Assembly: GCA_903889265.1 (NCBI GenBank)
Contig: CAISWS010000386.1
Location: forward strand, 1-35,347
Reading direction: 5' to 3'
DNA: 35,347 nucleotides
Origin: an uncultured Bacteroidota bacterium
GTDB lineage: Bacteria > Bacteroidota > Bacteroidia > Chitinophagales > LD1
In this document: in pieces, positions 1 to 35,222 of the stretch
Position numbering within the stretch: position 1 is the stretch's first letter
Layout: each line of letters starts with the position of its first letter
The notes under the pieces: generated by a model
What the model was told of the DNA's origin: nothing
Database searches by the model: none
The model's input: only the letters and a program-made list of their open reading frames with translations
Program-made: the position numbers and the translations under genes

Positions 1-67
1 AATGGCAGCGTGTCCCGCATAAGGATGCGGGAAGGTCGCAAGTTCAAATCTTGTCACCCAGACTTTA

Positions 68-94
68 AGCCTATCCGAAAGGGTGGGCTTTTTT
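68..94 (+). terminator. Intrinsic terminator, unit 1
   Basis: 9-bp stem AGCCTATCC / GGGTGGGCT with a GAAA tetraloop (77-80), followed by a T tract (89-94). The stem includes two G-T pairs. It lies 5 bp after the acceptor-like end of the tRNA half, where a tRNA transcript would be terminated. Confidence 0.85.
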
Positions 95-170
95 ATTATT
101 GGCAATGGCAGCGTGTCCCGCATAAGGATGCGGGAAGATCGCAAGTTCAAATCTTGTCACCCAGACATTA

Positions 171-197
171 AGCCTATCCGAAAGGGTGGGCTTTTTT
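171..197 (+). terminator. Intrinsic terminator, unit 2
   Basis: Exact copy of the 9-bp stem, GAAA loop and T tract of unit 1, displaced by 103 bp. Confidence 0.85.
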
Positions 198-273
198 ATT
201 ATTGGCAATGGCAGCGTGTCCCGCATAAGGATGCGGGAAGGTCGCAAGTTCAAATCTTGTCACCCAGACTTTA

Positions 274-300
274 AGCCTATCCGAAAGGGTGGGCTTTTTT
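274..300 (+). terminator. Intrinsic terminator, unit 3
   Basis: Exact copy of the unit 1 terminator, displaced by 206 bp. It is the last full terminator before the large T9SS gene and insulates that gene from transcription entering from the left. Confidence 0.85.
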
Positions 301-309
301 ATTATTGGC

Positions 310-454: not shown

Positions 455-3400
455 ATGAGAAACAAATTTACCCCCCTGCTCATTTCCGTTTTTATTCTGC
501 TCCTCTCAGGTATTTCTATTTGCTCTTTCGCAGAGAAAAAACATGAGAAGTTCGTTGCAAAACCTTTCGAGAACAAGGTTTTTATTGAAGAGCACGGACA
601 ATTTACGCAACGCGCCACGGAAAACGGAATTACACTTCCTGAAAAAGTAAAGTTTGGAGTTGAGAACGGAGAGTTCTACGCTTATTTCAGCCCTTCAGGA
701 TTAACTTTTCAATTTGCCGAATACAAACCTATTGAAAGAAAAGATGGTGAAGACGAAAAGGAAAAAGAGGGAGAAAAAGAAGCAGACGGGCCGAAATTTG
801 AAAGGGTTTGGCATTCAGTGAATTTGAAGTTTTTAAATGCCAATCCCCAGGCAGAAGTTGTTGCCGGAGAAAAGGTGCATGAATATTACAATTATGCCGG
901 CTTTAACAATAGCGCTCAGTACAACTTTGTTCCCGCTTATAAAACCATCAGGTATGAAAACCTTTATCCGGGTGTAGATGCTGAATTTGAATTGCCTGCG
1001 GAAGGAGGAATAAAGTATAAATTTATAGTTCAGCCGGGGGTTACAATTCCGGAAATTGCTTATGAATTTGGTGGAACAGAAAACCTGGCGCTTGATTCCG
1101 CTGGCAGCCTGATTATCAATAGCCTGTTCGGGAAGCTTACCGACCATGCACCAAGTGCCTATACATCTACCTCGCATCAATCTATTGCAGTAAAATATGG
1201 GCTGGAAGGTAACAGGGTAAAATTCCAGTTTTCCTCCAGTGAGGTTTCTTCACCAGAAGGGATTGTAATCGACCCATGGATAACGGCCACCACCTTTCCA
1301 GCTACCAATAGTGCCTTCGAAATTCAGGAAGACGGGGCGGGTAATGTGGTTGTAATGGGTAGCACTTCCAACTACCAGGTACAGAAATACAGTCCCACAG
1401 GAGTATTGATATGGACCTATGTTACGGCCTCTATTTTTCTTGGAGACATTGCTGTGGATGTTCCTGGAAATGTTTACATCGTAGGTGGTTATTCAGCAGG
1501 TAAAAGGCAAAAACTGAATTCCAGCGGAGTTCAGCAATGGGTGTTTCCGGGATTATCAGAAGAATGGAGATTGGCTTTTGATTATTCTAAAACAACACTT
1601 ACGGTAGGTGGCTACTTTATAGACCCGGGTGGTAATAACTTAGGGCGGTTCGACACCAGCACCGGGGCCATCAGCAATGAAATAGTTTACGGCGATGAAA
1701 CGCGGGGCATAGCTACTGACTGTAACGGCGATATGTATTCGCTGCACGTAACATTTGGTTTCGCAGGTGTCGCCGCATCTAACATGCTTAAAAAGACGAA
1801 TGCGAATTTCACTCCGGCGGGGTCGGTGACCAGCGGTTTTTTACTGGCGGAGGCTGAACCGGCAAGCGGTTATGCCCCTAATCCATTATATGGCCCCAAC
1901 ATTTACCAGGGCATAAATGCCTTAGTGGTAAGAGGTTTTTACGTTTATGCTTTCGATGGTGCTTCCATCCGCCGGTTTGACAAAACTTCACTCGCCTTCA
2001 TTAACAGCGTTAACGTGCCCAATGGGGCTAGGATGATGTGTAGCGGAATAGCTGCCGATTATTGCGGAAATATTTATGCCGGAACCTTGAACGGGATTGC
2101 GGTTTATGATTCCACGCTTACTTACCAGCAAACCATTGCCGCACCAGGGGTAGTTTATGATATACTGCTCAGTAATGCAGGGAACCTGCTGGTTTGCGGG
2201 GCCGGTTTTCTGGCCAGCGTTGATATTACCTGCGGCGTACCGGCAGCGTTGAGTGCAACTACCAATACCCTTTGCGCCGGAACAGGTTCGCTAACCGCTG
2301 TTCCATCGGGAGGTATAGGCCCTTATACCTACCTCTGGCAACCTAATGGGCAAACTACAGCAAGCATTAATAACCCGCCAGCCGGAAATTACCCGTATGT
2401 AGTTAGCGATGCATTCTGTCACACCTATGCGGGCACGGCGGTAGTAAACGCCAGCCCCGTTGCTGCTTTTACCTCGGCAAGTACCGGTGTTAGTAACGGC
2501 GGGCCCAACACCGTTTGTGCGGCGGGTACCATTCAATTTACCGATGGTTCGACAGTGCCTGCGGGAACCACCCTTAGCCGCTCCTGGGACTTTGGAGATG
2601 GAAGCCCTGTTGATGTTTCTCAAAATCCGCAACACGTTTATGCTTCACCAGGCACGTACACTGTTAAGCTTATTGTAACCACTAATATGGGATGTTCAGA
2701 TAGTTCTACCGTGCCTGTACAGGTTTATCCTCTTCCGTTTGCAGATTTCACTGCGCCATCATTCTGCCCTGGTGTTCAGGGTAGTTTTACCAATCAAAGC
2801 AGCATTTCCTCTGGTACTATTGCCAGCTACACTTGGAACTTTGGCGATGGTTCAGCCACCAGTAATTTACCTGCCCCGGCCCATTCGTATGCTTTATCAA
2901 ACACCTATCATGTGGGGCTTGCGGTAACCAGCGCCAATGGTTGTGTACATGACACTACGATAACAGTGCTGGTTAACGCTTCACCCACAGCTAATTTCTC
3001 AACCACCAATGTTTGCCTGGGCGCGCCCAGTGTATTTACTGACCTTTCCTCAGTGGCCAGCCCCGCAACAATAAGCAGCTGGGCCTGGGATATTGGTAAT
3101 AACGGCAGCGTTGATTTCACAACGCCCAACCCAACGTACACATTCGCCTCTGCCGGAACGGTTAATGTTTTGCTTACCGTGGTGTCATCAACCGGATGCC
3201 TTGGCGACACATTACTGCCGGTAACAGTTTTTGCAGGTGTAACTGCAAGCTTTAGTGCTACCAATGTTTGCCAAAAAGTGGCTACAGTTTTTACCGACCA
3301 AAGTACAGTCACATCGGGTAATATTATAAACTGGGAATGGAGTTTTGGTGATACAAGCACCAGTACCGGCCAAAGCCCCTTATACACTTACCCGGCCGCA

Positions 3401-4765
3401 GGAACCTACCAGGTTCAACTGCGCATAACATCCAATGAGGGCTGTAGCGATAGCATTGCAAAACCAGTTACGGTTTACCCGCTGCCGGTGGTTGACTTTG
3501 GGACCGTGCCGGCAAACGGCTGTGTACCGCTTAACGTTGTGTTGACTGATCAAAGCACTATCGCCACGGGTAATAATGTGGCCTGGAATTGGCAGGCAGG
3601 AAACCTCTTCTCATCAGCCCAACAATACACCGGCTTTACTTTTTCCGCCGCAGGAACATACAGTGTTACGCTTACCGTAACCAGCGATAAGGGGTGTATG
3701 GACAGCCTTACAAAACAGATTACGGCTTATCCTTTACCCGTAGCTGGTTTTACCGCCGTCCCGGCAGCAGGTTGTGCCCCGCTGAATGTGACGCTGAACG
3801 ACCTGAGCAGCGTATCCACCGGAAGTGTTGTTACCTGGAACTGGCAGGCAGGAACTCTTTATTCATCGGCCCAGCAAAACACAAGCTTTAATTTTACCGC
3901 TGTGGGAGTGCACAATATTACGCTTACCGTAACCAGCGATAAAGGTTGTATGGATAGCGTTTCGAAACCGATTACGGTTTATCCTTCACCGGTAGTGGAT
4001 TTTGAAGCTGTACCTGCAAGCGGCTGCGTACCGTTGAATGTGGCCCTGCGTGATTTAAGCAGTATTGCCACGGGCAGTAATGTAGCCTGGAACTGGCAGG
4101 TAGGAAACCTCTTTTCATCGGCACAACAAAACACGGGCTTTAATTTTACTACCGACGGAACATATAATGTTACCCTGGCCGTAACCTCTGACATGGGCTG
4201 TAGCAGTACATTAACACGCAACGATTTTATTGTTGTTTATGCTAACCCTGTTGCTGAGTTTGCCCCCAATCCGCAGCAAGCTGAGCTTAATGAGCCTCAA
4301 ATCCAATTCACGGACCTTTCAACGGGCAGTCCGGTTCAGTGGAACTGGCAGTTTGGAACCGGTGATGGCTCAACCCTGCAAAACCCTGCTTATACCTACC
4401 AGCACACAGGCACCTATACCGTTCATCTTGAAATAGCTGACCAGCATGGTTGCACAGATACCGTAAGCCATACGGTGGATATTATACCAGCGCCCACTGT
4501 TTTTATACCCAATGCATTTACGCCTAATGGCGATGGCAACAACGACACCTGGGGCATAATTGCCAATAATGTAAAATATATAGAGTTACAGGTGTTTGAC
4601 CGTTTAGGCGAAAAGGTATTTGAAAGCAATAACATCAACGAACGTTGGGACGGCACATATCGCAGCAAGCCACTTTTGCCCGGGGTTTTTGTTTACCAAT
4701 GCACCCTGGTTAACACGCAGGATGTTACCAGCCATTTGAAAGGAAGCGTTACACTGTTAAGATAG
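455..4765 (+). CDS. Giant PKD-repeat protein with T9SS type B (gliding motility) sorting domain
   Basis: Secreted 1436-residue surface protein. Residues 1-26 are a signal peptide ending SFA. About 40-275 match the DUF7948-type N-terminal domain common in Bacteroidota adhesins (begins FIEEHGQF), with a charged Lys/Glu-rich insertion near 90-110. About 275-600 are repetitive beta-propeller-like sequence (DGAGN, DVPGN, DYCGN turns). Eight PKD-type domains follow (about 665-1342); the first two and the fourth carry W-x-FGD motifs. The end (about 1345-1436, starting VFIPNAFTPNGDG and containing DRLGEKVFES) is a CHU_C/TIGR04131 type B sorting domain recognised by T9SS. Known for the family: export across the outer membrane and attachment or release at the surface. 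Inference: an adhesin or matrix protein; the ligand is unknown. It lies alone between two copies of a tRNA-half repeat. Confidence 0.9.
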   Translation: MRNKFTPLLISVFILLLSGISICSFAEKKHEKFVAKPFENKVFIEEHGQFTQRATENGITLPEKVKFGVENGEFYAYFSPSGLTFQFAEYKPIERKDGEDEKEKEGEKEADGPKFERVWHSVNLKFLNANPQAEVVAGEKVHEYYNYAGFNNSAQYNFVPAYKTIRYENLYPGVDAEFELPAEGGIKYKFIVQPGVTIPEIAYEFGGTENLALDSAGSLIINSLFGKLTDHAPSAYTSTSHQSIAVKYGLEGNRVKFQFSSSEVSSPEGIVIDPWITATTFPATNSAFEIQEDGAGNVVVMGSTSNYQVQKYSPTGVLIWTYVTASIFLGDIAVDVPGNVYIVGGYSAGKRQKLNSSGVQQWVFPGLSEEWRLAFDYSKTTLTVGGYFIDPGGNNLGRFDTSTGAISNEIVYGDETRGIATDCNGDMYSLHVTFGFAGVAASNMLKKTNANFTPAGSVTSGFLLAEAEPASGYAPNPLYGPNIYQGINALVVRGFYVYAFDGASIRRFDKTSLAFINSVNVPNGARMMCSGIAADYCGNIYAGTLNGIAVYDSTLTYQQTIAAPGVVYDILLSNAGNLLVCGAGFLASVDITCGVPAALSATTNTLCAGTGSLTAVPSGGIGPYTYLWQPNGQTTASINNPPAGNYPYVVSDAFCHTYAGTAVVNASPVAAFTSASTGVSNGGPNTVCAAGTIQFTDGSTVPAGTTLSRSWDFGDGSPVDVSQNPQHVYASPGTYTVKLIVTTNMGCSDSSTVPVQVYPLPFADFTAPSFCPGVQGSFTNQSSISSGTIASYTWNFGDGSATSNLPAPAHSYALSNTYHVGLAVTSANGCVHDTTITVLVNASPTANFSTTNVCLGAPSVFTDLSSVASPATISSWAWDIGNNGSVDFTTPNPTYTFASAGTVNVLLTVVSSTGCLGDTLLPVTVFAGVTASFSATNVCQKVATVFTDQSTVTSGNIINWEWSFGDTSTSTGQSPLYTYPAAGTYQVQLRITSNEGCSDSIAKPVTVYPLPVVDFGTVPANGCVPLNVVLTDQSTIATGNNVAWNWQAGNLFSSAQQYTGFTFSAAGTYSVTLTVTSDKGCMDSLTKQITAYPLPVAGFTAVPAAGCAPLNVTLNDLSSVSTGSVVTWNWQAGTLYSSAQQNTSFNFTAVGVHNITLTVTSDKGCMDSVSKPITVYPSPVVDFEAVPASGCVPLNVALRDLSSIATGSNVAWNWQVGNLFSSAQQNTGFNFTTDGTYNVTLAVTSDMGCSSTLTRNDFIVVYANPVAEFAPNPQQAELNEPQIQFTDLSTGSPVQWNWQFGTGDGSTLQNPAYTYQHTGTYTVHLEIADQHGCTDTVSHTVDIIPAPTVFIPNAFTPNGDGNNDTWGIIANNVKYIELQVFDRLGEKVFESNNINERWDGTYRSKPLLPGVFVYQCTLVNTQDVTSHLKGSVTLLR
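3488..4249 (+). repeat. Three in-frame 252-bp repeats encoding PKD domains 5-7
   Basis: The fifth to seventh PKD domains start at 3488, 3740 and 3992, a period of exactly 252 bp (84 codons), with strong DNA identity (for example TGGAANTGGCAGG recurs at 3584, 3836 and 4088). The third unit is slightly longer at its end. These units share WNWQ-x-GxLxSSAQQ in place of the usual W-x-FGDG of PKD domains. The pattern indicates recent duplication or ongoing homogenisation inside the gene. Confidence 0.85.
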
Positions 4766-4841
4766 GGGAAACATTTCGACCGGGATATTAAGTCAACAGC
4801 CTGGTTGGTATTAAGATTCTCTGTTTAAGGATTCACTTTTT

Positions 4842-4950
4842 TTATTATTGATAATATCTAAGCATCCCGGAATAAAAAGCGGGATGATCGCAAGCTCAAA
4901 TCTTCTCTTCCCGATATTAGGGCATGTCGTACCAGGTAGGCTTTTTACCT
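4842..4950 (+). repeat. Degenerate solitary copy of the tRNA-half/terminator unit
   Basis: Begins TTATTATTG exactly like the linker of the 1-309 array and keeps the same spacing to TCCCG (14 bp). The TCCCG-N10-CGGGA stem-loop (4865-4884), 5-nt variable loop, GCAAG stem and CTCAAAT loop (4890-4901) align without gaps. I count 37 of 51 identities between 13-63 and 4865-4915. The terminator has decayed to GGTAGGCTTTTTA (4935-4947). The copy is in direct orientation to the array, so the 455-4765 gene is flanked by related repeats. Confidence 0.75.
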
Positions 4951-30306: not shown

Positions 30307-32730
30307 GTGAAATCACTATTACTTATAGCCGGTTTGCTGCTCGCTTTTTACATCCCCTACGCGCAGGTGTCGCAATTTACTGTGCAGGGTCGTATAGTTG
30401 ATTCATTGACTGGAAAAGGGATTGAATTAGCCACTGTTGCCCTTAAAACCCCTGATAACGACCAATTAGTTACCGGCGCAACCACAGATGCCGATGGGAA
30501 ATTCGAACTACAGAATATAAAGATTGGCAAGTATCAGTTGCTTATCACCTTTGTTGGTTACAACCCCAAAACATTACCGGTTGAACTGAATGCCAACCTG
30601 CAGCTAAAATCCATTCAGCTAATCCCTTCTTCTCAAACTTTGAATACCGCAGTTATTACAGCCGAAAAATCCCTGATTACAAAAAACTCCGAAAAAACTG
30701 TTTTTAATGTGGCCCAAAGTCCAACCAACCAAACGGGTACTGCAGAGGACGTATTGCGCAACATGCCGGGTGTTAGCGTTGACCAGAAAGGAAATGTTTC
30801 AATCATCGGCAAACAGGGTGTAAAAATACTGGTTGATGGCAGGCCCAACGCCCTGGCACAAAGCGACCTTGAAAGTTTTTTAAAATCATTGCCAGCCAGT
30901 TCTATTGAAGCCATTGAGCTGATTACAAACCCCTCTGCCCGCTATGATGCCGAAGGCAACGCTGGCATCATTAATATAAAACTAAAAAAAGGCAAAGCCG
31001 ATGGATTGAATGGTTCAGTCTCGGTGGGCTATGGCGTATTAAACCGGTATAACGGAAATTTTGCAATCAATTACCGCAAAAATAAAATCAACGTTTTCGC
31101 TACTTACGGGGCGTATTATTCAAAAACAGGTAACCAGTGGATTGAGAACAGGGCCATTACCGTAGATAGTCTGCTGAGCCATTATAACCTGAACAGTAAA
31201 GGAACGGAGACCCGTTTCAGCAATAACCTTAAAGCGGGGCTCGATTATTTTATTAATGATAAGAACACCCTCACCTATACAACCAGCGGTAATTACAGCC
31301 AGGGCAGGTGGTTAAGTCTGGCGTCCTCTGAAAGCCTGGATGCGTTTGAAAATGAGGTAGCAAAATACAGCTCAACGGATGACGAACACAGCACTAACTA
31401 CTCCATAACCAACGATATATCATACCGCAAAAAATTCGACAGCACCGATCGCGAACTGGACATTGATATTAACCATACTTATGTAAACGGAAGCCGAAAC
31501 GCCCCACTCAATTCCCTGGCGTACGATACCCTCGGCAATTTTGACCCTGCCAATAGTTTATACCGGCGCACCACCTCTGCCAATAACATTCAGAATTTTG
31601 TTTTTCAGCTCGATTATATCCACCGGCTTAAAAAACTGAAGGGCTACAAAATTGAAGTTGGTGCCAAAAACGAAACCACCATCAATCGAAATAATTTCAA
31701 TGTTTACGACACCATCAACAACGTGGAGACCCGCGATGACACGTTAAGCAACAATTTCAATTACACTGAAAATATTACAGCCGCTTATTTTATTATGAGC
31801 GGGGCTTACAAAAAGATACTCTCTTATTCTGCCGGGTTAAGAGGAGAATATACTTACATCCGAAGCAACGATAACTCTGTAAATAAAAACTACCCCGACC
31901 TCTTCCCCAGCGCATCCATCAGCTACGCCATTAACGATACCCAGAACCTGAGTTTAAGTTACAGCCGCCGGGTTCAGCGGCCGCAGTTCAGGCAAATAAA
32001 TAATACTATATCGTATATCGACCAATACAGCACCTGGCAGGGCAATTCTTTTTTACAGCCTTCGTATTCAAACATCATCAGTGCCAACTATTCCATCAAT
32101 GTGGGCAAGCACATGTTCTCATTTGATGCCAGTGGTAATTTTCAAACCCAGCTGATTACAGAAACCTCACATGCAGACAGCACCCGTATTACCCGGGGCG
32201 GCGTAACCAACGCAGGCAGTGCCAGCACTTTCAATTTCACGTTTTACGCCAAACTGCACTTAACCAAATGGTGGGAAATTCAAATGAACAATACCTACAG
32301 TTACATAGCTTATGGCTATCAGCCGGGTATTAACCTCAGCTCTATTTCGGGTAGCTCCTACAACCTGTGGTCGGCTATTGATTTTAAATTCTGGAAGGGC
32401 ACTACTTTAGAAATTAATGGCTGGTTCAACACCAAAGCCGTTAATACCCAGGGCTATGTTTTGCCCGCAGGTGTTTTAAACGCCAGTTTAAAAAAGGCTT
32501 TTTTAAACGACCGCCTTACTGTTTCCCTTGCTGGCAACAACATGCTCAACACCATGAAATGGCGCTGGGTTACCTATAACACCGGCCTTGTAACCCAGGG
32601 AAGCTGGCAGGAAATTAACCGCGTGCTTATGATAACCCTTTCGTATAAGTTTGGCTCGGGCAATGGGAGCGAACGGAAAATGAAAGAGGATAACGACCGC
32701 CTGGGCGGTGGCGGAGGTGGCCGGGGCTAG
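30307..32730 (+). CDS. Outer-membrane beta-barrel receptor (OMP_b-brl_3 type), copy 1
   Basis: 807 residues from a GTG. Signal peptide about 1-20 (LLLIAGLLLAFYIPYA). Residues about 24-105 are a carboxypeptidase-regulatory-like beta-sandwich (VQGRIVDSLTGKGIELATV). About 110-230 are a TonB-receptor-like plug (DVLRNMPGVSVDQKGNVSI, ILVDGRP, NPSARYDAEGNAGIINI). The rest is a barrel ending VLMITLSYKFG (about 780), followed by an unusual Gly-rich tail (RLGGGGGGRG). Family members are predicted substrate-import or surface receptors. A close paralog follows 80 bp downstream. The tail differs in the paralog. Confidence 0.9.
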   Translation: MKSLLLIAGLLLAFYIPYAQVSQFTVQGRIVDSLTGKGIELATVALKTPDNDQLVTGATTDADGKFELQNIKIGKYQLLITFVGYNPKTLPVELNANLQLKSIQLIPSSQTLNTAVITAEKSLITKNSEKTVFNVAQSPTNQTGTAEDVLRNMPGVSVDQKGNVSIIGKQGVKILVDGRPNALAQSDLESFLKSLPASSIEAIELITNPSARYDAEGNAGIINIKLKKGKADGLNGSVSVGYGVLNRYNGNFAINYRKNKINVFATYGAYYSKTGNQWIENRAITVDSLLSHYNLNSKGTETRFSNNLKAGLDYFINDKNTLTYTTSGNYSQGRWLSLASSESLDAFENEVAKYSSTDDEHSTNYSITNDISYRKKFDSTDRELDIDINHTYVNGSRNAPLNSLAYDTLGNFDPANSLYRRTTSANNIQNFVFQLDYIHRLKKLKGYKIEVGAKNETTINRNNFNVYDTINNVETRDDTLSNNFNYTENITAAYFIMSGAYKKILSYSAGLRGEYTYIRSNDNSVNKNYPDLFPSASISYAINDTQNLSLSYSRRVQRPQFRQINNTISYIDQYSTWQGNSFLQPSYSNIISANYSINVGKHMFSFDASGNFQTQLITETSHADSTRITRGGVTNAGSASTFNFTFYAKLHLTKWWEIQMNNTYSYIAYGYQPGINLSSISGSSYNLWSAIDFKFWKGTTLEINGWFNTKAVNTQGYVLPAGVLNASLKKAFLNDRLTVSLAGNNMLNTMKWRWVTYNTGLVTQGSWQEINRVLMITLSYKFGSGNGSERKMKEDNDRLGGGGGGRG

Positions 32731-32798
32731 TTTTGCGGTGATTTGACGTCTTATCTTTTATGCGCCTTATTTTGCAAACAATTTTCCACTCAATTCGT

Positions 32799-32806
32799 TA
32801 TGTTAG
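32799..32806 (+). promoter_or_regulatory. -7 box of second receptor gene, leaderless type
   Basis: TATGTTAG with 4 nt (CACA) before the GTG at 32811. TTTTG (32770-32774) lies 24 nt upstream. The block CAATTCGTTATGTTAGCAC matches CAATCCGTTAAGTTAGCGC before copy 1, so the promoter was duplicated with the gene. Confidence 0.6.
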
Positions 32807-32810
32807 CACA

Positions 32811-35222
32811 GTGAAATCATTGTTGCTCTCAATCTGTTTTATTTTCCTTTCCCTGGTCGGTTTTGCGCAGAATACTACATTTTCCATTCGTGGCACTGTG
32901 GTTGATTCGGTCAGCGGAGCGCCTGTGGAATTGGCAACTGTGGTGCTTAAAAACCCCGCAGGCGATCAGATAATTACCGGTGCAACAGCCGATGCCAGCG
33001 GTAAATTTGTTATCGAAAATATTAAAACCGGAAAATATCAGTTGGTAGCCGGTTTTGTAGGTTATAGCTCAAAAACCATTCCCATTAAAATTACCACCGA
33101 TTTACAAATGAAGGCTATTAAGCTCCTTCAGGAATCTGCAACATTAAATGCCGCAGTTATTGTAGCCGACCGGTCCCCTATTATTAAAACCGCCGAAAAA
33201 ACCATTTTCAATGTAGCCGAAAGCCCCACCAACCAAAGCGGCACTGCTGAAGACTTGCTGCGCAATATACCCGGCGTTAGTGTTGACCAGGACGGCAACA
33301 TATCCATCACCGGAAAAGATGGCGTAAAAGTGCTGGTAGATGGCAGGCCCAACGCCCTTGCGCAAGCCGACCTGCAGGGCTTTTTAAAATCCATGCCAGC
33401 CAGTTCTATTGAAAGCATTGAAGTAATCAACAGCCCCTCTGCACGGTATGATGCCGAAGGCAACGCAGGCATCATCAACATCATTTTGAAAAAAGGGAAA
33501 GCCAATGGTTTAAACGGAACCATTGCTGCAGGCTATGGATATATAAACCGCTACAATGGCAGTCTGGTAATTAACTACCGCAAAAATAAAGTCAATGTGT
33601 TCGGCTCATACTCCGCTAACTATGCCGAAAACACCAATCAATGGAAGGAGAACAGAACAATTAACGTAGACAGCGCAATTAGCCACTACAACCTGAACAA
33701 TAACGGCACCGACAAACGACTGAACAATAGTTTAAAACTTGGCTTCGATTATTTTTTTGATGATAAAACCACTTTTACCTATACCGCCAGCGGCAGCTAC
33801 TCGCCCGATAAAAACCTAAGTACCGGTAATTCGCAAAGTCTGAACACGCTGATGGATACCATAGAACATTACAACTCCACCAACAACCAGCGCAGCTACA
33901 ATTACTCAGTTACAAACGACTTTAGCTACCGCAAAAAATTCGACAGCACGGACCACGAGCTTGATATAGACTTTAACCACACCTACCTGCAAAGCGCTCA
34001 AAATGCCATGCTCAGCTCACTGGCATACGATACCGCCGATATCTACGATGCCCCTAACAGCCTTTACCGGCGCACCGCTTCAGATAATTATATCCACGAT
34101 ATTAATTTTCAGTTAGATTATATACGACCGCTGCGCAGGCTTAAAGGATATAAAATTGAAACCGGTGTAAAAAGCTCAACCACCATTAACAGCAGCGTAT
34201 TCAACGCCTACAATACTGTAAATAATATCGAAACCAAAGATACCCTGCTTAGCAACAACTTTAATTACACCCAAAACATTACTTCGGTTTACGCTTTGCT
34301 GCGGGGCACTTTTAAAAAGTGGCTCTCCTACTCAGGCGGCTTGCGGGGCACTTACACTTACATTAAGAGCAACGATAATGCGGTTTACCAAAGCTATCCT
34401 GGCCTGTTCCCCAGCGGCTCGGCCAACGCCGCCATTAATGATACACAAAACGTAAGCATCAGCTACAGCAGGCGCGTGCAGCGGCCTCAATTCAGGCAAA
34501 TAAACAACACCTTAACCTATATAGACCAATACACTACCTGGCAGGGCAATCCCCTCTTAAAACCCGCCTATTCAAACGTAATAACGGCTAATTATACCAT
34601 CCACGTAGGCAAGCAAATGTTTTCGTTTGATGCAGGAGGCAATTTTCAAAATGGGGTAGTGATACAAACCTCGCAAATTGATAGCCAGCGCATTACCCAC
34701 CAAACCGTAACCAACGGGGGCATAAATAAAATATTCAATTTAAGCTTCTACTGCAAATTGCATATCACCAAGTGGTGGGACCTCCAGGTATATAATAATT
34801 ACTCCTACAAAGATTATGGTTTCGAGCAGGGCGTTAACATCACCGCCATGTCGGGCAGCGTTTATAACCTGTGGTCCTCCACCGACTTTACATTCTGGAA
34901 AGGCATGGTACTGGAGTGCAATGGCTGGTTCAACAGCCGTGGTGTCAACGCGCAGGGCATATCGTTACCGGTGGGTGTAGTTAACGCCAGCCTCAAAAAA
35001 TCCTTCCTCAAAAAAAAGCAGCTAACCGTATCCGTTGCTGCCAACAACATGTTCAACACCATGGAGTGGCGCTGGGTTAACAACACCCCCGGCCTCGAAA
35101 CCCAGGGCAGCTGGCAAAACTTCAACCGCACCGTAATGATAACCCTCACTTACAAATTCGGCCTCCCCGAAAAACCCAGCGAAAAGAAAGAGCAAGAGGA
35201 GAACGAGCAGTTAGGAGGATAA
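32811..35222 (+). CDS. Outer-membrane beta-barrel receptor (OMP_b-brl_3 type), copy 2
   Basis: 803 residues from the GTG at 32811. An upstream in-frame ATG (32760) would add 17 residues and include the promoter; the start is instead chosen by alignment with copy 1 (both begin with MKSLLL). Signal peptide ends VGFAQ. The domain order matches copy 1: CarboxypepD_reg-like (VRGTVVDSVSGAPVELATV-like region), plug (DLLRNIPGVSVDQDGNISI, VLVDGRP, SPSARYDAEGNAGIINI), then barrel to VMITLTYKFGLPE. It ends in a Glu/Lys-rich tail rather than poly-Gly. The two receptors are strongly similar throughout, so a tandem duplication that diverged mainly in loops and tail. Confidence 0.9.
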   Translation: MKSLLLSICFIFLSLVGFAQNTTFSIRGTVVDSVSGAPVELATVVLKNPAGDQIITGATADASGKFVIENIKTGKYQLVAGFVGYSSKTIPIKITTDLQMKAIKLLQESATLNAAVIVADRSPIIKTAEKTIFNVAESPTNQSGTAEDLLRNIPGVSVDQDGNISITGKDGVKVLVDGRPNALAQADLQGFLKSMPASSIESIEVINSPSARYDAEGNAGIINIILKKGKANGLNGTIAAGYGYINRYNGSLVINYRKNKVNVFGSYSANYAENTNQWKENRTINVDSAISHYNLNNNGTDKRLNNSLKLGFDYFFDDKTTFTYTASGSYSPDKNLSTGNSQSLNTLMDTIEHYNSTNNQRSYNYSVTNDFSYRKKFDSTDHELDIDFNHTYLQSAQNAMLSSLAYDTADIYDAPNSLYRRTASDNYIHDINFQLDYIRPLRRLKGYKIETGVKSSTTINSSVFNAYNTVNNIETKDTLLSNNFNYTQNITSVYALLRGTFKKWLSYSGGLRGTYTYIKSNDNAVYQSYPGLFPSGSANAAINDTQNVSISYSRRVQRPQFRQINNTLTYIDQYTTWQGNPLLKPAYSNVITANYTIHVGKQMFSFDAGGNFQNGVVIQTSQIDSQRITHQTVTNGGINKIFNLSFYCKLHITKWWDLQVYNNYSYKDYGFEQGVNITAMSGSVYNLWSSTDFTFWKGMVLECNGWFNSRGVNAQGISLPVGVVNASLKKSFLKKKQLTVSVAANNMFNTMEWRWVNNTPGLETQGSWQNFNRTVMITLTYKFGLPEKPSEKKEQEENEQLGG

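Follow-up and report, generated by a model that had tools for sequence, protein, structure and literature searches.

Hairpin-marked tandem copies of part of a tRNA-Pro(GGG) gene in a Bacteroidota genome and their possible link to GIY-YIG nucleases

The contig studied here opens with three nearly identical repeats, each resembling the 3' half of a tRNA gene followed by a terminator, which raises the question of what such an array is and how it arose. The window, by which we mean the whole stretch of 35,347 nucleotides that was analysed, is an entire contig (G000:C386) of an uncultured Bacteroidota assembly of 5.1 Mb in 527 contigs.

The array and its parent tRNA gene

Tandem Repeats Finder reported a repeat at 1-313 with a period of 103, 3.0 copies and 98% matches, and comparison of the units confirmed what a sequence-only reading had described, namely three 103-bp units with a T-arm and an acceptor 3' strand. 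Unit 3 repeats unit 1 exactly; unit 2 departs from them at 2 of the 103 positions, with AGATC in place of AGGTC and a second change 3' of the acceptor. The array abuts the contig end, so that its copy number is at least three. Each unit consists, in order, of a D-stem scrap (GGCAGCG), a hairpin, AGGTC, the T-arm, the acceptor 3' strand CACCCAGA, a 10-pair terminator and a short linker, and folds with z = -3.2 against shuffled sequences. What had been read as a 10-nt anticodon loop on a 5-bp stem is a perfect 8-bp stem with a 4-nt loop, and the terminator-like stem with its T run (67-90, 170-193 and 273-296), previously called perfect, contains G-U pairs and is strong rather than perfect. The features discussed below are:

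1-103, + strand: unit 1, the complete build including terminator and linker
104-206, + strand: unit 2, differing from unit 1 by 2 substitutions
207-309, + strand: unit 3, with the same sequence as unit 1
13-32 (also 116-135 and 219-238), + strand: hairpin TCCCGCAT-AAGG-ATGCGGGA in the place of the anticodon arm
33-62 (repeated at +103 and +206), + strand: variable loop, T-arm and acceptor 3' strand of tRNA-Pro(GGG), matching G009 L005/L044 and others
67-96 (repeated at +103 and +206), + strand: terminator with 10-pair stem, GAAA loop and T run, alignable with the native tRNA-Pro(GGG) terminator of G009
455-4765, + strand: gene for a 1436-aa PKD/CHU_C (type IX secretion signal) protein
4838-4950, + strand: decayed fourth copy, with a hairpin at 4865-4884, a degenerate T-arm and acceptor strand and a T-rich end; 73% identity to the array over 82 bases

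Neither a functional tRNA gene nor an ordinary tRNA cluster accounts for the array. ARAGORN called no tRNA in the window, and the Rfam tRNA model (RF00005) matched the array with 23 bits, below its gathering score of 29, the best match spanning model positions 14-71 only; the 5' half is therefore absent, as had been claimed, and there is no complete cloverleaf with a 7-nt anticodon loop. No Rfam family reached its gathering threshold in the window, and matches to Phe_leader, a toxic sRNA and other known RNA families all fell far under their cut-offs, seemingly mirroring the terminator. A chance repeat was rejected as well: the window has 4 occurrences of TCCCG-N4..10-CGGGA where 0.07 would be expected, one in each of the three units and one in the decayed copy. 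No promoter-like site was seen in 1-480. A phage collection queried with the array returned only short matches, one of them at a tRNA-Pro and three unannotated.

The PKD/CHU_C gene is flanked by the array and the decayed copy and is, as far as can be told, a bystander; a 252-bp tandem repeat (2.5 copies, 73%) lies within it at 3553-4186. Near the other end of the window, adjacent ORFs at 30307-32730 and 32760-35222 (807 and 820 aa) have similar sequences by eye and seem to have arisen by tandem duplication of a gene of the outer-membrane receptor type. There is no GIY-YIG ORF among the listed window ORFs, a scan of 10 window proteins found no integrase, and the DNA upstream of the array lies outside the contig.

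The T-arm and acceptor strand of the units match tRNA-Pro(GGG) of three congeners (G009 L005/L044, G003 L006 and G005 L011), and in G009 the native terminator of this gene can be aligned with that of the units. A further congener, G002, has two hairpin tails, spaced by about 102 bp, downstream of an intact tRNA-Pro(GGG) with its terminator (L264); both tails begin with GGCAGCG, and the second ends truncated in the T-arm. As judged by alignment, the array units are shown to be 3'-half copies of tRNA-Pro(GGG) and its terminator, with a hairpin where the anticodon arm would be. The expectation that a complete tRNA precedes the array is supported by this congener, but no upstream tRNA is visible in the source assembly. 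There, tRNA-Pro(GGG) is not among the 30 tRNAs above cut-off (two weaker matches were left out), and its 5' half was not found with up to 3 mismatches allowed. Several further tRNAs are likewise absent from the assembly, so that the tRNA-Pro(GGG) gene probably exists beyond a contig end, and the intact copy probably lies just past the start of this contig.

The tRNA-Pro(GGG) loci L005, L006 and L011 have no tail, which indicates that the site is variable within the genus; no synteny between the window and congener tRNA-Pro(GGG) loci was seen by eye. At a locus in G001 (C329, L007), the anticodon arm and 3' half of a tRNA-Pro(GGG) are joined to a foreign 5' side, and the place looks like the attachment site of some other element. 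By eye, 5 of the 30 tRNAs of the source assembly are no more than about 200 nt away from a contig end (C74, C86, C448, C222 and C44), as if repeats beside tRNAs had broken the assembly at those five ends.

Hairpin-marked partial tRNA copies in other genomes

Other genomes were searched with a pattern combining the hairpin, the variable loop and the start of the T-stem. Matches were found in 6 of 18 genomes of the genus and 8 of 30 of the family; a slightly altered pattern matched 43 of 298 genomes (24 of 140 genera) in the order, and a stricter one 18 of 395 genomes in the phylum. The reversed-pattern control gave 0 matches at genus, family, order and phylum level. The patterns impose CCCG/CGGG and GTTC; this selection does not affect the inner pairs, the flanks or the copies picked by the hairpin alone. 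In all, 91 distinct copies were analysed. The first inner pair left free by the pattern is Watson-Crick in 88 of 90 cases (AT 60, CG 28) and the second in 73 of 78 (TA 39, CG 22, AT 12); with 63 different hairpins among the 91 copies, the bases co-vary.

A same-strand tRNA called by ARAGORN lies within 900 nt of 68 copies, while the other 23 have none within that distance in the sequence examined, some of them being at contig edges. The copies resemble the tRNA they adjoin, and many isotypes are represented. Relative to the partner tRNA, 47 of 67 copies lie downstream, 15 upstream and 5 are unclassified; three of the 15 upstream placements (L048, L064 and L110) are doubtful: each was paired with a neighbouring copy or with a distant tRNA and retains much of the 3' half. 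Downstream copies retain the partner's own T-arm and acceptor strand and mostly drop the 5' side past about 8 nt, whereas most upstream copies retain 5' sequence and drop the 3' side from the T-loop onward. Upstream-type copies of tRNA-Ser and tRNA-Arg, which were picked by the hairpin alone, break inside GTTC or 1-2 nt before it. By sequence comparison, the same build is shown to recur beside many tRNA genes, either downstream with the 3' half kept or upstream with the 5' half kept and a break in the T-loop.

Tandem arrays with units of 67-113 bp occur in several other genomes, including one of three 104-bp copies upstream of a tRNA-Ser in G002, and similar arrays lie inside contigs of 178 kb (L261), 122 kb (L264) and 219 kb (L143). 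No tail lies in the tRNA-Thr(TGT)-Tyr spacer of the source genome; in G015 and G017 this spacer holds one, flanked by repeated T-arm, acceptor and trailer sequence. Together with the small GIY-YIG genes described below, these observations suggest that the hairpin-marked copies are a little-noticed mobile or amplifying element living on tRNA genes. A literature search, in which subscription journals were thinly covered, found no description of hairpin-marked partial tRNA copies.

Among viral sequences, the hairpin-copy pattern matched 95 stretches of IMG/VR. Ordinary tRNAs whose arm is 15 nt long accounted for 61 of the 82 matches analysed (80 loci), so that an arm of this length, which is seen in 17 of the 91 copies, is weak evidence by itself. 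Fourteen of the 91 copies fall inside ARAGORN calls, several with odd anticodons, and one (L146) is probably a chance match in a coding region. At two loci of G018, L064 and L067, the loop has the regular 7 nt and reads GTA or CTA; ARAGORN calls L064 a tRNA-Tyr, and both loci could be either genuine tRNAs or recent copies. A contig that is classed as viral (IMG/VR 3300031707_006572, L207, positions 151-711) has an intact tRNA-Pro amid three hairpin-marked tRNA-Pro(TGG) copies.

GIY-YIG nuclease genes beside the copies

A GIY-YIG ORF ends within 120 nt upstream of 24 of the 91 copies, and none is that close in the other 67. In 12 of these 24 the ORF terminates within the D-stem, its stop codon ending 6 nt ahead of the hairpin. 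The distance from the start of the tRNA to the tail is 100-260 nt in 27 of 53 cases and 330-440 nt in 20, the two classes expected for tails without and with an ORF. The relationship was also seen from the side of the nuclease. Pfam PF01541 matched 36 small ORFs across the genus, of which 31 were examined, second copies, fragments and others being left out; a same-strand tRNA lies within 300 nt upstream of 16 of the 31 and within 600 nt of 19, as against none of the 12 UvrC genes examined (15 listed). It is thus shown, on the evidence of ORF positions, that a small GIY-YIG ORF often accompanies the build, with its 3' end running into the D-stem of the tail. In the source genome, such a nuclease-bearing form is found at L087 (G000:C298, 1393-1790), where tRNA-Met(CAT), a terminator and a GIY-YIG ORF are followed by a 3'-half copy of tRNA-Met, the stop codon of the ORF sitting in the anticodon loop of that copy. 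At L077 (G015) and L089 (G014) a GIY-YIG ORF precedes an intact tRNA-Leu, accompanied by broken 5' copies of tRNA-Leu with CCTGCC..GGCAGG-type palindromes, once with two sites in one copy.

The small ORFs examined are about 64-167 aa from stop to stop and comprise the catalytic domain only. Residues Y, G, R, H, E and K are invariant across 52 GIY-YIG domains, and the two close pairs gave dN/dS values of 0.069 and 0.055. The tree of these 52 domains (79 columns), built from a set that mixes hairpin-selected and GIY-selected loci, required 13 changes of isotype label over 40 labelled rows, compared with 21-27 in 300 shuffles, and its proline clade unites the family of the window with another family (98/98). 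The GIY-YIG lineages are therefore shown, as far as their phylogeny can be read, to sort by tRNA isotype. No proline-type GIY-YIG was seen in the source assembly.

Proposed origin and comparison with known systems

We lean towards the view that the array consists of tandem tails of a selfish, tRNA-associated GIY-YIG element resembling SegB, in a solo-tail form without the nuclease. The junction between the GIY-YIG 3' end and the D-stem, together with the break in the T-loop, shares the layout of SegB, and we infer from this that insertion or amplification is driven by the nuclease. The predicted nuclease would be selfish and isotype-specific, cutting within tRNA genes in the T-loop or the anticodon region. 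Repair of the break through D-arm and T-arm homology or microhomology would then insert or amplify a segment while one intact tRNA is retained, leaving a partial copy with a hairpin in the place of the anticodon arm. This hairpin might be a mark that makes the copy uncuttable or a structure that the nuclease recognises. Tails without an ORF would be non-autonomous or decayed products, spread by tandem amplification, and the window would hold this form at tRNA-Pro(GGG), with the intact gene expected just beyond the contig start. Counting against this view are the 67 copies with no GIY-YIG ORF close by, the lack of such an ORF in the window list and of a proline-type one in the source assembly, the weak match of the single-domain ORFs to T4 SegB, the palindromes that lie away from tRNAs, the 23 copies with no nearby tRNA and the small number of columns behind the tree. 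A broader proposal, offered tentatively and with somewhat less than even confidence, is that minimal selfish elements made of a single GIY-YIG domain and a hairpin-marked partial tRNA copy are spread across the phylum and specialised by isotype in Bacteroidota, with the hairpin marking the element itself for recognition or immunity and with arrays of tandem tails, such as this one, as their non-autonomous offspring.

Several other explanations were weighed. The copies might be neutral by-products, in which a REP-like dispersed palindrome landed in spare tRNA copies, replication slippage produced the array and GIY-YIG genes merely settle near tRNAs. Palindromes of the TCCCG..CGGGA type away from these copies speak in its favour. 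TCCCG..CGGGA is found 39 times in the source genome compared with 21 for the reversed control, and several congeners are far over the control while G005, G008, G009 and G010 are not. Near a tRNA lie 18 of 22 such palindromes examined in G002 (25 listed) and 2 of 13 in G001, the other 11 being away from tRNAs; in G001 they form a dispersed repeat in tRNA-free stretches (L271-L277, L279 and L280). Given the palindromes away from tRNAs and the four genomes at control level, the hairpin is not tRNA-specific, and since similar palindromes are dispersed in some genomes it may be recruited from a general pool. Nor need it be TCCCG: among the 16 GIY-selected loci with an upstream tRNA, TCCCG..CGGGA is present in 7 and another palindrome in most of the rest, with none seen by eye at L158, and different palindromes mark the copies L077, L089 and L096. 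What this explanation accommodates poorly is that the hairpin occupies the anticodon arm across many isotypes and families, and that the GIY-YIG ORFs end beside it and sort by isotype; we consider it unlikely.

The suggestion of the sequence-only reading that came nearest to the evidence was that each unit is left over from repeated integration at the 3' end of a tRNA. Elements of the tyrosine recombinase type would have repeatedly entered and left the 3' end of tRNA-Pro(GGG), each leaving a 3' half and a terminator, and a direct repeat of 3' half and trailer is the expected leftover; L007 of G001 resembles such a site. However, the units are merely 103 bp apart, none of the 10 scanned window proteins is an integrase, upstream copies keep the 5' half, a co-varying hairpin stands in for the anticodon arm and GIY-YIG ORFs are the neighbours, a combination that fits integrase attachment sites poorly and makes this origin rather improbable. 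A role as RNA was given similarly low odds, the units being transcribed from the promoter of the upstream tRNA and serving as decoys for enzymes that bind or cleave tRNAs, or as stable 3' ends, with the hairpin shielding them from anticodon nucleases. The hairpin and T-arm folds are stable, compensatory pairs preserve the hairpin and the window units retain their terminators, which would suit such a role. Against it, 1-480 shows no promoter-like site, tails without a 5' half and upstream copies without a T-arm give no evident common RNA product, and copies decay (4838-4950) and differ between congeners. Finally, an assembly artefact or a misassembled ordinary tRNA cluster, which the position of the array at a contig end in a fragmented assembly might bring to mind, is scarcely credible in view of the two private substitutions in unit 2 and of comparable arrays within long contigs of other genomes.

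If the selfish-element reading is right, tRNA genes of Bacteroidota host a small nuclease element that copies parts of tRNAs, spares one intact gene and leaves a hairpin as a mark in the broken copy. Amplification of tRNAs in the manner of SegB would then reach beyond phages to bacterial chromosomes, breaks in assemblies and odd tRNA calls in the neighbourhood of tRNAs would become easier to explain, and there would be a directly testable case of a single-domain GIY-YIG enzyme finding a tRNA gene.

Among known systems, group I introns in tRNA genes are inserted in the anticodon loop. They were rejected as an explanation, as the copies here are broken and stand beside an intact tRNA, and the Rfam scan of the window gave 0 matches at gathering threshold. 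Bacterial group I introns target tRNA genes and some carry homing endonucleases, according to one account (PMC3984707). REP palindromes, as portrayed in another (PMC3733652), are short and dispersed, some of them in tandem; the palindrome here has a fixed place in tRNA copies. The present loci also differ from several other systems in their architecture. Elements that integrate into tRNA genes by a tyrosine recombinase leave a displaced tRNA 3' half beside an intact tRNA. That much is shared, whereas tandem units of about 100 bp, upstream-type copies, the hairpin and scanned window proteins free of integrases are different. By sequence, the nearest solved structures to the GIY-YIG proteins are the UPF0213 proteins 1ywl and 1zg2, then SLX1; UPF0213 and SLX1 are structure-specific GIY-YIG nucleases, and SLX1 chains are longer than the ORFs here. 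To our knowledge, neither has been described as a tRNA-linked element.

The closest parallel in layout is SegB. In PMC13096335, SegB of phages T4 and T6 is described as a free-standing GIY-YIG homing endonuclease in tRNA clusters that cuts inside tRNA genes with the motif RAWTSGAAC, the SegB of T6 driving tandem amplification of tRNA-Tyr and segB by recombination where the 5' region of the tRNA and the 3' end of segB share microhomology. We read the reverse complement of this motif as the T-loop sequence GTTCSAWTY. The nuclease proteins here are GIY-YIG proteins and not SegB orthologues: the best domain of T4 SegB (221 aa) scored 4.6 bits against the domain profile (78 positions), and no full-length orthology was found. 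Unlike phage SegB, the loci described here are bacterial, and their small ORFs hold the catalytic domain only; the copies are partial, a hairpin replaces the anticodon arm and the nuclease lineages are isotype-specific. A GIY-YIG gene beside tRNA genes, the arrangement typical of SegB, is found in the family and is absent among the window ORFs. In both systems the GIY-YIG gene adjoins tRNA genes of many isotypes, and the meeting of the GIY-YIG 3' end with the tRNA D-stem here recalls the microhomology between the segB 3' end and the tRNA 5' region.
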